64,000 bases of DNA from Branchiibius hedensis (GTDB lineage Bacteria > Actinomycetota > Actinomycetes > Actinomycetales > Dermatophilaceae). The notes under the pieces were generated by a model. The model saw only the letters and a program-made list of their open reading frames with translations, had not been told where the DNA came from and did not search any database. The position numbers and the translations under genes are program-made. Positions 17,348-21,126 of the stretch are shown in pieces (position 1 is the stretch's first letter; each line of letters opens with the position of its first letter). The DNA is taken from assembly GCF_900108585.1 (NCBI RefSeq), contig NZ_UESZ01000001.1, positions 3,410,001-3,474,000 on the forward strand, read 5' to 3'.

Positions 17348-17564
17348 GGGGAAACCTCCGGCAGGAACGAATGAGTGGTACGCCGAAAAACTACCGCGTT
17401 TGCGTGCTACGCGCCGGGTCGCGCGGGGATCCGCCGGGGTCATGCACGTCACCCCCAGCGTTATGCACGTTGGCGCTCAGACCGGGTCGATCGGCGTACG
17501 TCGCTCCTAACGTCTCCAGCGTCAGTCCACCGACCCGGTGGGCCCAGCACGCGGAGGTACGACG
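17348..17564. promoter_or_regulatory. Divergent intergenic region between ppk2 and secreted hydrolase pair
   Basis: 217 bp without a credible gene. It contains two ATGCACGT copies (about 17442-17449 and 17462-17469) and a small hairpin (CCACC-GACCC-GGTGG, 17527-17541) in front of the secreted gene. The ribosome site for the rightward gene is GGAGG at 17553-17557. No promoter can be placed with confidence. Confidence 0.4.
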
Positions 17565-18428
17565 ATGCGGGAGAACGGGATGAGCACCACACGCAAGGCC
17601 CTGGGCGCGGTTGGCGCGTTCAGCGTGATTGCCGCCGGAATGGTGGCCCAGGGAGCGCCGGCGCAGGCTGCTGGTCGCAACGGTGTCTGTGATAGCGGTG
17701 AGTTCTGTTACTACTACAACTCCGGTCAGGCGGGGTCGGTGTCGGACTTCACGTCGTCGCTGGCGGACTACGGGGCAACCCAGCCGTCCTGTTATGACTT
17801 CAAGGGTGCGGGTGCCGGCAAGGGCAAGTGCCTCAAGAACCAGGCGGCTTCGGCGTGGAACCGCACGTCCAAGACGGTGCGGGTCTACTACAACAGCAAC
17901 TACGGCGGGAAGTACCTGGACATCAAGGCCGGTGCGAAGGTCAACCTGGGTGCGCTGAAGAACCAGAACGCCTCGCACAAGATCGGTGTCTCCGCGACCA
18001 AGTCCAACAAGGAGGTCGCCTTCGACTTCTTCGTGGGCAAGGGACTCACCGCGCGGCAGTCCGCGGGCATCGTCGGCAACCTCGTGGTCGAGTCAGGAGT
18101 GGATCCCACGATCAAGCAGATCGGCGGCGGCCCGGGCCGGGGCATCGCGCAGTGGAGTGTTGGCGGCCGGTGGGATCACGACAGCAAAGACAACGTGATC
18201 TGGTACGCCGGGCAGAAGGGCACCAGCTCGCTGAGCTTGTCGACACAGCTGAATTTCACCTGGTACGAGCTGAATACGTTCTCGACCTACGGTCTGTCCT
18301 CCCTGAAGGGGACCACGACCATCTCCAGCGCCACCACGACGTTCATGAGCAAGTTCGAGCGATGCGGTGCCTGCAACTCCACCGCGCGGGTCAACGCGGC
18401 GACCGATGTCTACAACCAGTACCACTGA
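17565..18428 (+). CDS. Secreted I36-domain protein with phage-tail-lysozyme-like C-terminus
   Basis: 287 residues. A Sec signal peptide with AQAAG cleavage (about residue 35) precedes a peptidase-inhibitor-I36/beta-gamma-crystallin-like domain (about residues 36-142) with four Cys and the GVCDSGEFCYYYNSGQAG opening. The C-terminal half (about 148-287) has LTARQSAGIVGNLVVESGV with the catalytic-type Glu and GGGPGRGIAQWS, which matches the Phage_lysozyme2 (tail lysozyme) fold acting on peptidoglycan. It therefore probably binds and cuts cell wall outside the cell. It is followed 19 bp later by a paralogue sharing the first half and carrying a different hydrolase. Confidence 0.8.
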   Translation: MRENGMSTTRKALGAVGAFSVIAAGMVAQGAPAQAAGRNGVCDSGEFCYYYNSGQAGSVSDFTSSLADYGATQPSCYDFKGAGAGKGKCLKNQAASAWNRTSKTVRVYYNSNYGGKYLDIKAGAKVNLGALKNQNASHKIGVSATKSNKEVAFDFFVGKGLTARQSAGIVGNLVVESGVDPTIKQIGGGPGRGIAQWSVGGRWDHDSKDNVIWYAGQKGTSSLSLSTQLNFTWYELNTFSTYGLSSLKGTTTISSATTTFMSKFERCGACNSTARVNAATDVYNQYH

Positions 18429-18447
18429 TCGCAACGGAGGAATGATG

Positions 18448-19287
18448 ATGAAAACGACTGCTACCAAACGAGTTCTGGGCGTCCTCGGCGTCGCCGGTGT
18501 CGTAGCTGGCGGGATGCTGGCGCAGGGAGCGCCGGCGCAGGCTGCGGGTCGCAACGGTGTCTGTGACAGTGGCGAGTTCTGTTACTACTACAACTCCGGC
18601 CAGGCGGGGTCGGTGTCGGACTTCACCGGCTCACTTGCGGACTACGGGACAACCCAGCCGTCCTGTTACGACTTCAAGGGTGCTGGTGCCGGCAAGGGCA
18701 AGTGCATCAAGAACCAAGCGGCCTCGGCATGGAACCGCACGTCCAAGACGGTGCGCGTGTATTACAACAGCAACTACGGCGGGAAGTACCTGGACATCAA
18801 GGCCGGTGCGAAGGTGAACCTGGGTGCGCTGAAGAACCAGAACGCCTCGCACAAGATCGGCGTCAGCACCGGCGGCGGTTCCTACACACCGAAGGACGAC
18901 TACCCGTACAAGGGCGCGACCAGCGGCGTCGACCCGTGGAACTTCTACAAGGGCCAGTGCACGAGTTTCGCTGCCTGGACGGTCAATTCGCGCCTCGGGA
19001 TCAAGTTCAGCAACTCCTACAAGGGCCAGCACTGGGGCAATGCGATCAACTGGGACAACGCGGCCCGGGCCGCCGGGATCCCGGTGAGCGGTACCCCCAA
19101 GGCCGGGGACATCGCCGTACGCAACAGCGGTACCTATGGCCACGTTGCGTTCGTCACCAAGGTCAACAGCAACGGGACCGTCGAGGTCGACGAGTACAAC
19201 TTCGTCCACAAGGACGCCTACGACCACCGCACGGCCTCGGTGGGCAGCGGCACGAACTCGTTCGACGCGTTCATCCACTTCAAGTAG
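18448..19287 (+). CDS. Secreted I36-domain protein with CHAP amidase/peptidase C-terminus
   Basis: 279 residues from the third of three ATGs, 7 nt after a strong CGGAGG; the first at 18442 is too close to it. The signal peptide and I36-type domain are almost identical to the upstream gene's. The C-terminal domain is CHAP: GQCTSFAAWTVNSRLG carries the catalytic Cys, YGHVAFVTKVNSNGTVEVDEYN carries the His and the polar third residue. CHAP enzymes cut peptidoglycan stems or crossbridges. The pair looks like a duplicated targeting module joined to two different wall-cutting activities. Confidence 0.87.
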   Translation: MKTTATKRVLGVLGVAGVVAGGMLAQGAPAQAAGRNGVCDSGEFCYYYNSGQAGSVSDFTGSLADYGTTQPSCYDFKGAGAGKGKCIKNQAASAWNRTSKTVRVYYNSNYGGKYLDIKAGAKVNLGALKNQNASHKIGVSTGGGSYTPKDDYPYKGATSGVDPWNFYKGQCTSFAAWTVNSRLGIKFSNSYKGQHWGNAINWDNAARAAGIPVSGTPKAGDIAVRNSGTYGHVAFVTKVNSNGTVEVDEYNFVHKDAYDHRTASVGSGTNSFDAFIHFK

Positions 19288-19313
19288 GACGCGCTCGGTC
19301 GGTAGGGACCGAC

Positions 19314-19348
19314 GTACCCCGTCGCTGGTGTGCACAGCGGCGGGGTAC
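19314..19348. terminator. Hairpin terminator between convergent genes
   Basis: A 14-bp stem with one mismatch (19314-19327 and 19335-19348) and a 7-nt loop, placed between the stop codons of the CHAP gene and the leftward membrane-protein gene, so it can serve both. Confidence 0.7.
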
Positions 19349-19374
19349 GCCGCAGCACCGGCCGCTTCGGCGCG

Positions 19375-20124
19375 CTATTCCAGGAAGGCGGCCTCGGCGG
19401 TTGCCGCCTCCGGTGCGTCGATGCGCAGCACGTTGTCGTTGGTCAGGTAGCCCGCTCGCTTGGCCAGGGTGCGTGAGCGCTGGACGAACCAGATCTGCCA
19501 CGCGACCAGGATCAGGAACGTCACCACGGTGATGGCCGTCGTACTGGCTACTGCTACATCGAGATTCACGGTGTAGATCAGCCAGAGGCGCAGGATGGAT
19601 TCGAGGATCAGACCGATGCCCCACACGCACGCCATCACGTAGAACCCGATCCGGAAGTTCTGGGACACGGCCCAGCCGCGTTCGAGTTCACCGCGGGCCT
19701 GAACGTCCTTGCCGGCCAAGCGTTTGCCGACCATGAAGGTGATCGGGTGTTTGACGGCGGCGGATCCGATCATGACCAGGCCACCGGCGATCGTGGCGGC
19801 TGCGCCTTTGGCGAGCATGAACCGGGGGTCGCCGGTGACCAGCGACAACGCCAGGCCGCCGGCGAAAACCACCAGCATGAAGACGGAGAAGCCGTCGAGT
19901 TCGCCGTTCTTGCGGATCAGCCAGACCATCCGGATGCCAGCAGCGATCGTGGCGATGAACAGCGACGGGGTCATGCCGATGTGCGCCAGCCGGGCCAGGT
20001 AGTAGGCGACCAGCGGGATCGCGACGTCCAGCGCCATCATGGTGCCGAGGCCGCGCATCGCGATGGTGCTGGCATAGCGACCGCCGTCAGCCATCATCTC
20101 GTTGACGGTGCGGATGGGGTGCAC
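19375..20124 (-). CDS. VC0807-like integral membrane protein
   Basis: 249 residues from a GTG with AGGAG 7 nt upstream. Seven hydrophobic helices; segments such as DVAIPLVAYYLARLAHIGM, RMVWLIRKNGELDGFS and TGDPRFMLAKGA match the VC0807 family, distantly like intracellular septation protein A. The function of the family is not established. Single gene, divergent from the DUF1801 gene. Confidence 0.7.
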   Translation of the reverse strand: MHPIRTVNEMMADGGRYASTIAMRGLGTMMALDVAIPLVAYYLARLAHIGMTPSLFIATIAAGIRMVWLIRKNGELDGFSVFMLVVFAGGLALSLVTGDPRFMLAKGAAATIAGGLVMIGSAAVKHPITFMVGKRLAGKDVQARGELERGWAVSQNFRIGFYVMACVWGIGLILESILRLWLIYTVNLDVAVASTTAITVVTFLILVAWQIWFVQRSRTLAKRAGYLTNDNVLRIDAPEAATAEAAFLE

Positions 20125-20171: not shown

Positions 20172-20537
20172 GTGGCGGACTCTGTGGCGGACTACCTGGC
20201 GAGCGCTCCCGAGGCAGGTCGGGGGTGGCTGCGTGAGTTCTGGGCGTACGTCGACGCGCACTACCCGACGGTGCCGCTCGTGATGTTCCGGGGAGTGCCG
20301 ATGTATAAATTCGAGGATTCCTACCTCAAGGGGTACGTGATGTTCACGGCCGCCAAAACCCATTTCGCGACGCACGCCATCGACTTCGACCTGGTGTCGG
20401 AGTATCGCGCGCGGATCCCGGGGGCAGCCGGTGGCAAGGGCAACGTGGCGGTGAAGTACCCGAACGTCGCCGCGCAGCCGCTGCTCAAGGAGTTCGTCGA
20501 CGCGGTGATGGCGCGGCACGAGGTCCCGCGCGTTTAG
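20172..20537 (+). CDS. DUF1801 (YdhG-like) protein
   Basis: About 121 residues from a GTG preceded by AGG. YLASAPEAGRGWLREFWAYV, VMFRGVPMYKF and YVMFTAAKTHFATHAIDF mark the DUF1801 fold, a small protein related to frataxin-like/iron chaperone-type folds with unproven roles. The stop overlaps the end of the doc-like toxin on the other strand by 4 bp. Confidence 0.75.
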   Translation: MADSVADYLASAPEAGRGWLREFWAYVDAHYPTVPLVMFRGVPMYKFEDSYLKGYVMFTAAKTHFATHAIDFDLVSEYRARIPGAAGGKGNVAVKYPNVAAQPLLKEFVDAVMARHEVPRV

Positions 20538-20923
20538 GGCCTTGAGGAGGGCTCGGTGAGTTCGCGCAGCCGCGCAGCAATGTCGGCAACTCCGCTCAAC
20601 TCGTCTGTCGCGACGGCGATGACGAGGTCGAACCGTTCGTCCTGCGTGGCGGTCACTCGCCAACCGTTCATCGCGAGGAAGAGCAACGTGGAGATCAGCG
20701 CGGTTCGCTTCTTGCCGTCCTGGAAGGCGTGGTTCTTGACCAGCGACTCCAAGAGCGCCGCCGCCTGTTCGTGGGTGTCGGGGTAGGCGGGGTCACCGAA
20801 GACCGTGGCCTGCGGGCGGAAGATCGCGGACTCGAGCAGTCCGGCATCGAGGACGACCGGTTCTTGCCCGAGGGCGGCGGTTCCGGCAGCGAGGATGTCG
20901 TCCAGTGTGAGGAAGTCGGTCAC
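20534..20923 (-). CDS. doc: Doc-type (Fic/death-on-curing) toxin
   Basis: 129 residues. The Fic/Doc core motif HAFQDGKKRT (about residues 65-74) is the active site: Doc kinases use HxFx(D/N)xNKR to phosphorylate EF-Tu and arrest translation. Here the Asn of NKR is Lys, so activity is not assured. FRPQATVFGDPAYPD before it and AMNGWRV after it are the usual Doc flanks. It is the second gene after its antitoxin, 2 bp apart. Other Fic-type modifications cannot be excluded. Confidence 0.88.
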   Translation of the reverse strand: MTDFLTLDDILAAGTAALGQEPVVLDAGLLESAIFRPQATVFGDPAYPDTHEQAAALLESLVKNHAFQDGKKRTALISTLLFLAMNGWRVTATQDERFDLVIAVATDELSGVADIAARLRELTEPSSRP

Positions 20924-20925
20924 GA

Positions 20926-21126
20926 TCAGGCATCGGCCAAGCGGTCAAGTACCTCGCGGTTTTCGACGACCAATCGTTCCAGAAGCGCATCGCGGCGAGC
21001 GGTTCGGGCTGCCGTGTACTGCTCGATCGCCTCGACCGCGACGGCATGCATCGAGCGACCTTCGTGCTCGGCCGTCTTGCGAAGAGCAGCGGTCTGATCG
21101 TCGGTCAGCCGTAGTGTCATGGCCAT
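20926..21126 (-). CDS. Ribbon-helix-helix antitoxin
   Basis: 66 residues (or 64 from the second ATG). MTLRLTDDQTAALRKTAEHE is an Arc/CopG-type ribbon-helix-helix start and GRSMHAVAVEAIEQYT is the second helix. The C-terminal helix is the likely toxin-neutralising part. Classical Doc is paired with Phd; here a ribbon-helix-helix protein takes that place. Located 2 bp before the toxin gene, it should autorepress through the adjoining palindrome. Confidence 0.83.
   Translation of the reverse strand: MAMTLRLTDDQTAALRKTAEHEGRSMHAVAVEAIEQYTAARTARRDALLERLVVENREVLDRLADA

Follow-up and report, generated by a model that had tools for sequence, protein, structure and literature searches.

A crystallin-like module shared by two neighbouring candidate peptidoglycan hydrolases in Branchiibius hedensis and its actinobacterial relatives

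How do two neighbouring genes come to carry nearly the same first half and quite different second halves, and what might such a pair do? The question is raised by two genes, here called A and B (Table 1), in a 64,000-nucleotide stretch of the Branchiibius hedensis genome (the window; contig NZ_UESZ01000001.1, G000:C1:3410001-3474000 in our genome set, where G000 is the window's genome). An earlier note on this DNA had described a near-identical I36-type half in both genes, and the alignment bears this out: the shared tract covers 348 nt with 26 mismatches (92.5% identity), and 3 of 116 residues are changed. Alignment by region, which the note had proposed as a check, gave 92.5% within the tract against 47% in the 81 nt on its 5' side and 27% in the 90 nt on its 3' side (both ungapped). 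The edges of the tract are thus sharp, and the similarity of A and B is far above chance. The signal peptide, which had also been described as shared, is alike over its last nine or so codons and mostly different over the earlier ones. Within the mature modules 16 codons differ silently and 3 with a change of residue, a pattern that suggests that both copies are strongly constrained. A and B lie on the same strand with an intergenic gap of only 13 nt and for this reason probably form one transcription unit. A search for sigma-70 promoters over positions 17380-19420 found none. Control of the pair by RNA was considered and dropped, as Rfam at gathering scores gave no RNA match in the window or in nine loci.

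Table 1. Positions of the two genes and their parts in the window
Feature	Positions	Strand	Basis or detail
Gene A (I36/crystallin-like module + Phage_lysozyme2)	17565..18428	+	ORF, 287 aa
Start region of A			GGAGG directly 5' of the start; ATG at 17580 as alternative start
Signal peptide of A, end APAQA-A	17565..17672	+	assigned by eye
Homogenised tract, copy A (92.5% identical to copy B)	17646..17993	+	nucleotide alignment
Mature module of A (Cys42, 48, 76, 89)	17673..17993	+	Pfam, fold comparison, alignment
Phage_lysozyme2 domain of A	18006..18422	+	Pfam, residues 148-286
Gene B (I36/crystallin-like module + CHAP)	18442..19287	+	ORF, 281 aa
Start region of B			GGAGG ahead of ATGATGATG
Signal peptide of B	18442..18546	+	assigned by eye
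Homogenised tract, copy B	18520..18867	+	nucleotide alignment
Mature module of B (Cys41, 47, 75, 88)	18547..18867	+	Pfam, fold comparison, alignment
CHAP domain of B	18934..19200	+	Pfam, residues 165-253

The second halves had been named as lysozyme-like in A and CHAP in B, an assignment on which the idea of a shared module had been staked beforehand, and both Pfam profiles match. Gene A matches Phage_lysozyme2 (PF18013) with an E-value of 7.6e-30 over profile positions 2-140 of 140. This half also shows a weak match (E 0.014) to gp13 of phage phi29, in which Glu176 of A falls at position 45 of gp13, a glutamate that we take to be catalytic. Gene B matches CHAP (PF05257) with an E-value of 1.6e-20, and its Cys173, His234 and Glu251 are conserved in all 10 of 10 aligned CHAP rows; the solved relatives of this half are 2k3a (E 5.4e-15), 4cgk and 5t1q. 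As judged from these sequence features, A and B are probably secreted peptidoglycan hydrolases. Related lysozyme domains were seen in other settings. A third related gene of the window's genome (L075:3046-3816, equivalent to G000:C1 3199045-3199815) joins a signal peptide to Phage_lysozyme2 (E 4.5e-35); its front part has no Pfam I36 match and the gene is 39% identical to gene A. Two genes at L006 and L016 (G027:C7) resemble A in its lysozyme half (matches of 62% and 61%), in alignments that leave the module uncovered.

The shared half belongs by profile to Inhibitor_I36 (PF03995), whose founder is a Streptomyces metalloproteinase inhibitor. The match is clear in both genes (E 2.6e-13 in A and 2e-13 in B; 50.1 and 50.5 bits against a curated cut-off of 21.1). 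Structure prediction, suggested in the earlier note, was run on both chains, and in the AlphaFold models both modules fold as beta-gamma-crystallins: fold comparison with 1hdf gave a Z of 10.8 for the module of B (2.5 Å over 90 residues) and of 9.2 for that of A (2.4 Å over 89 residues). Mean pLDDT was modest at 63.7 for B and 46.6 for A; in the latter model only the module is usable and the lysozyme half was judged by sequence. A profile of the module searched against solved chains found Protein S, though weakly (E 2e-4); at E<=1 it gave no inhibitor, and no solved I36 inhibitor was among the fold matches listed for the module models. Despite its Pfam name, the module is modelled as a beta-gamma-crystallin-like domain of disulfide type. 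Four cysteines are present in 227 of 230 modules. Calcium sites of beta-gamma-crystallins follow an N/D-N/D-x-x-S/T-S motif that occurs twice, and the N..AS motifs seen in the alignment of the module presumably resemble these sites, with a last position that is not Ser. The two calcium-motif patterns searched for occur in 210 and 201 of the 230 modules.

PF03995 was matched in 55 of the 186 genomes of the window's family, and at class level 16 of 394 genomes have a match at E<=1e-20. Among named genomes 252 relatives were found, of which the best 80 were kept, so that the named sample is biased to close modules. It contains many Actinomadura, Micromonospora and Nonomuraea, and also Janibacter melonis, Luteipulveratus, Phycicoccus and Flexivirga; Janibacter is placed in the window's family in the genome set but in the Intrasporangiaceae at NCBI. 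These 80 together with L097 and L098 make up the 82 named loci discussed below. L097 (MT837995.1, 2997-3878) is an unverified human-stool scaffold filed as 'Bacteriophage sp.' that encodes an I36-M23 protein and may be bacterial DNA. L098 (NZ_LT559118.1) is a Nonomuraea record deposited as a plasmid; its 11.85 Mb would rather fit a chromosome.

The claim that one module has been swapped onto different wall-cutting domains is upheld by these relatives, in which it fronts about eight wall-enzyme types. In 80 module genes of the window's own family and order (a subset of the PF03995 matches, from the loci examined) the tails are M23 (36), SpoIID (11), Lys2, that is Phage_lysozyme2 (8), Cys/His (7), CHAP (6), M15-like (4), NlpC-like (4, as 3 and 1) and GH25 (3), with one gene truncated at a contig end. 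Representatives of five types (M23, SpoIID, Lys2, CHAP and GH25) pass the Pfam cut-offs; two NlpC-like representatives fall below, and tails of the Cys/His and M15-like types, for which Pfam gave no match, were named by eye. The SpoIID-type second gene of the relatives matches PF08486, TIGR02669 and the solved SpoIID chains 4rwr and 5i1t, with NCBIfam scores below cut-off. An apparent fusion into one chain in Nonomuraea wenchangensis (L168, 608 aa) was discarded, part of the stretch reading as N.

Two or more module genes stand in tandem in 70 of the 82 named loci (the best 80 of 252 plus two), and a single one in the other 12, some of them at contig ends. In the usual named arrangement SpoIID comes second, after an M23, CHAP or Cys/His domain. 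On the assumption that M23, CHAP and Cys/His act on peptides, and SpoIID and Lys2 on glycan, both classes are present in 68 of 69 typed named arrays, and the peptide type comes first in all 68; the sole exception is Janibacter (M23, CHAP). Cys/His alone supplies the peptide class in 9 of the 68. L103, with its partner cut, stands outside the 69, and five SpoIID genes were typed by sequence motif, the module search having over-extended. The 68 mixed arrays are largely one inherited arrangement and not independent events. In the window's own family and order there are 17 tandem loci, of which 16 could be typed (G181 is untyped) and 12 of the 16 mix the two classes; the four without a glycan type are G128, G168, G079 and G019. 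In G123, G124 and G125 Lys2 stands last, in the usual place of SpoIID, while the order in the window (Lys2 then CHAP) is the reverse of the peptide-first order of its relatives. Related genomes do carry module pairs, which the earlier note had made a condition of its module idea, but the exact Lys2+CHAP combination was seen only in the window among the 16 typed loci of the own family and order and the 69 typed named arrays.

The assignment of SpoIID to the glycan cutters follows our assumption that it is a lytic transglycosylase. An excerpt of one paper gives the reverse, with SpoIID as the amidase and SpoIIP as the transglycosylase (PMC7985256). The peptide-plus-glycan rule in the relatives is therefore unsure, as it rests on an assignment which that excerpt contradicts, and the names of the solved chains matched do not settle which bond is cut. 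The window's own Lys2+CHAP pair is independent of this question.

Many of the relatives have further neighbours in common. Relatives of a protein with a PG_binding_1 domain (L168:2951-3850; E 8.3e-5 at 23.1 bits, the cut-off being 23; its end looks M15-like by eye) adjoin the pair in 70 of the 82 named loci and lie near module genes in 17 genomes of the own family and order. A possible regulator (L122:5922-7229) combines an NBR1-Ig domain (E 6e-11) with a DNA-binding-like start and a membrane segment, both seen by eye. Relatives of its first 110 residues are present in 65 of the 82 named loci, themselves the best 80 of 252 plus two, and in 12 own-family or same-order genomes, and the NBR1-Ig domain was confirmed at the regulator position in G188, G189, G171 and G174. 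Of this four-gene locus (PG_binding_1 protein, I36-peptidase, I36-SpoIID and possible regulator) only the I36 pair was found in the window's genome. No PG_binding_1 relative and no NBR1-Ig domain (PF16158 search) was found there with queries that each match in 4 of 4 relatives tested, and no SpoIID with a query that matches in control genomes. Since none of the three was found, the window is best read as a reduced and rearranged Lys2+CHAP member of a wider actinobacterial locus. The pair itself sits between PPK2 and a protein with a sub-cut-off IspA match. Further along the minus strand a Fic/DOC-type gene (20537-20923) directly follows a 66-residue ORF (20926-21126) that could encode an antitoxin.

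The modules of A and B are each other's closest relatives in a careful tree of the 80 modules from the own family and order, where they are sisters at 100/99. Other same-locus pairs are also sisters in this tree, at G188 (100/99), G128 (100/94), G079 (100/99) and G181 (100/97), and with weaker support at G189 (98/79), G168 (96/48) and G004 (95/46); those of G059, G060, G171, G174, G039, G123, G124, G125 and G019 are not. The SpoIID modules of G188 and G189 cluster with their own partners, away from the main clade of SpoIID modules. The AU test rejected a single clade for each of the tail types SpoIID (p 2e-8), CHAP and Cys/His, with a weaker rejection for Lys2 (p 0.026). A faster tree covered 221 modules, leaving out five named records that duplicate own-family genomes and counting a triple as three pairs; in it 34 of 85 same-locus pairs with unlike tails are strict sisters, some at low support, and 51 are not. 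Of the 71 named pairs 69 were compared, leaving out three genes that have no clean module, and in 25 of the 69 the two partners are more alike than either is to any module of the same type elsewhere in the named set.

The likeness can be extreme. In Streptosporangium violaceochromogenes (L172) the two modules show 0 differences in 103 codons, with the 75 nt on the 5' side 96% and the 90 nt on the 3' side 39% alike; at L143 the 75 nt upstream are 89% alike between partners. At L160 1 of 102 codons differs and the signal-peptide ends are 54% alike, and the M23-SpoIID modules of L098 have 99.7% DNA identity. The opposite holds for nine M23-SpoIID pairs of Micromonospora, where partners in a locus are 79-84% alike and each gene is 94-100% alike across species, although two Cys/His-SpoIID pairs of this genus (L160 and L176) reach 99% and 96% within the locus. 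Homogenisation of the shared half, as the earlier note had supposed for the window, thus stands and extends to many relatives, and episodic gene conversion between neighbours is likely to be the best account of these sequences.

Like modules with unlike tails would likewise result from a recent duplication of a whole gene and its fusion to a new tail, with no conversion, and for a lone pair such as that of the window this could suffice. It fits poorly with a recurrent arrangement that has recurrent neighbours: M23-SpoIID and the same adjoining genes recur in many genera, yet 25 of 69 pairs are closest within their own locus, the G188 and G189 SpoIID modules group with their partners, and many homogenised pairs have unlike signal peptides (L172 and L143, with their 75 nt at 96% and 89%, do not). 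We consider this explanation unlikely, and conversion between neighbours is preferred. It would be quite surprising if the shared domain were a protease inhibitor that shields the enzymes, as its family name I36 would have it; the modelled folds are those of beta-gamma-crystallins (Z 10.8 with 1hdf over 90 residues) and the profile found Protein S, weakly, and no inhibitor at E<=1. The fold thus lends the inhibitor label no support, although the module may still shield by some means other than inhibition. That the pair is a phage remnant, with a tail lysozyme and an endolysin, seems barely credible. Phage_lysozyme2 is named for phage tails and phage proteins match that half of A, but viral contigs, scanned within the limits of a pattern, yielded no confirmed relative of the module, the sole coverage of the module among the 20 of 362 phage records listed is an unverified 5.9-kb scaffold, and the Pfam-named neighbours in the window include PPK2, kinase, TetR, Fic, AAA and S15 proteins. 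With no phage gene recognised among the nine neighbours scanned, phage origin was rejected. A part in anti-phage defence was dropped too, there being no PADLOC match.

What the pair is used for divides the evidence more evenly. Remodelling of the wall of the producer itself during growth, division, sporulation or outgrowth, with the module docking to a polymer of that wall, is a serious contender, though we would place it somewhat short of an even chance. It is consistent with the hosts, since most named loci are in genera that we take to be hypha- or spore-forming, and with the PG_binding_1 protein and possible membrane regulator that adjoin many pairs. SpoIID-type partners are known from spore engulfment, according to an excerpt (PMC7985256). 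It is the partners, these hosts and the lack of a recognised immunity neighbour that favour this use. Against it stand the free turnover of the tail domains and a patchy occurrence, with matches at E<=1e-20 in 16 of the 394 genomes of the class and I36 in 55 of the 186 of the family. The locus is also present in Janibacter and Phycicoccus, which are presumably non-spore-formers. Patchiness and tail turnover would instead favour a weapon or a role in feeding, and it was as a secreted bacteriolytic pair acting on other bacteria that the earlier note had proposed A and B. The signal peptides (by eye), the four-cysteine module and the repeated exchange of cutting domains suit this proposal, and the nine window neighbours, two of them without any Pfam match, include no FemAB-like immunity gene, which may count against it; it is conceivable, and on balance we doubt it.

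The reading that we prefer, and hold to be slightly more probable than its opposite, is broader than either use: a secreted pair that degrades peptidoglycan by two kinds of cut with one docking module, of which the window has a reduced version. It builds on the domains, the pairing, the conservation and the homogenisation at DNA level. The common module on A and B would bind the wall: since the module is constant and the tail families have peptidoglycan as their common substrate, the simplest target for both would be a ligand in the wall. A, with its lysozyme-like domain, would cut the glycan strand and B, through CHAP, an amide or peptide link, so that one patch of wall might be opened in two ways, perhaps with synergy between the cuts. 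In the wider locus a PG_binding_1 protein would be followed by I36-M23, I36-CHAP or I36-Cys/His and then by I36-SpoIID or I36-Lys2, and the possible membrane protein often found beside it might regulate the whole. Occasional conversion between neighbours would keep the modules alike while the cutting domains are exchanged over evolution. A bolder version, which we regard as speculative and rather improbable, is that this is an undescribed regulated actinobacterial system in which several secreted hydrolases share one crystallin-type docking module, conversion keeps the modules matched to one wall receptor while the cutting domains are swapped like blades, and the NBR1-Ig membrane protein may activate the system on sensing wall that is foreign or damaged.

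If several enzymes lyse the wall with a common docking part, this could account for the opening of thick walls by some actinobacteria, and the pairs would offer ready-made two-cut lysins. The many homogenised loci form a natural set for the study of gene conversion that affects a single domain in neighbouring genes whose tails differ. For annotation, the label 'I36 protease inhibitor' may in this group denote a crystallin-type module of a wall enzyme.

The sharing of targeting domains by different hydrolases is a known principle. For this locus no earlier description was found within a limited literature: limited searches gave no account of it in open-access titles and abstract openings, and neither module nor locus is treated in excerpts of PMC4255298, PMC7985256, PMC10574481 and PMC5817068. 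With PF03995 the module shares an above-cut-off profile match and four cysteines; here it is fused to wall-enzyme domains and has no sequence match to a solved inhibitor. It shares the fold of the beta-gamma-crystallins (spherulin 3a, 1hdf; Protein S, 1prr) in both models, and differs from them in that it fronts an enzyme and the last motif position is not Ser. The relatives' second gene resembles the SpoIID/LytB family in its matches to PF08486, TIGR02669 (below cut-off), 4rwr and 5i1t, but carries the I36 module, and no such gene was found in the window's genome. Lysostaphin-type bacteriolysins likewise join a hydrolase domain to a candidate targeting domain. They are secreted hydrolases; in the pair, putative signal peptides were assigned by eye and hydrolase domains by profile. 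The pair has a module of another family, two enzymes and no FemAB-like gene among nine neighbours. A further comparison is with gp13 of phage phi29, which has lysozyme and M23 domains in one chain. Two cutting activities are joined in both cases, and the weak match to gp13 (E 0.014) puts Glu176 of A at its position 45; in Branchiibius the two are predicted to lie on separate chains, each with a copy of the shared module.
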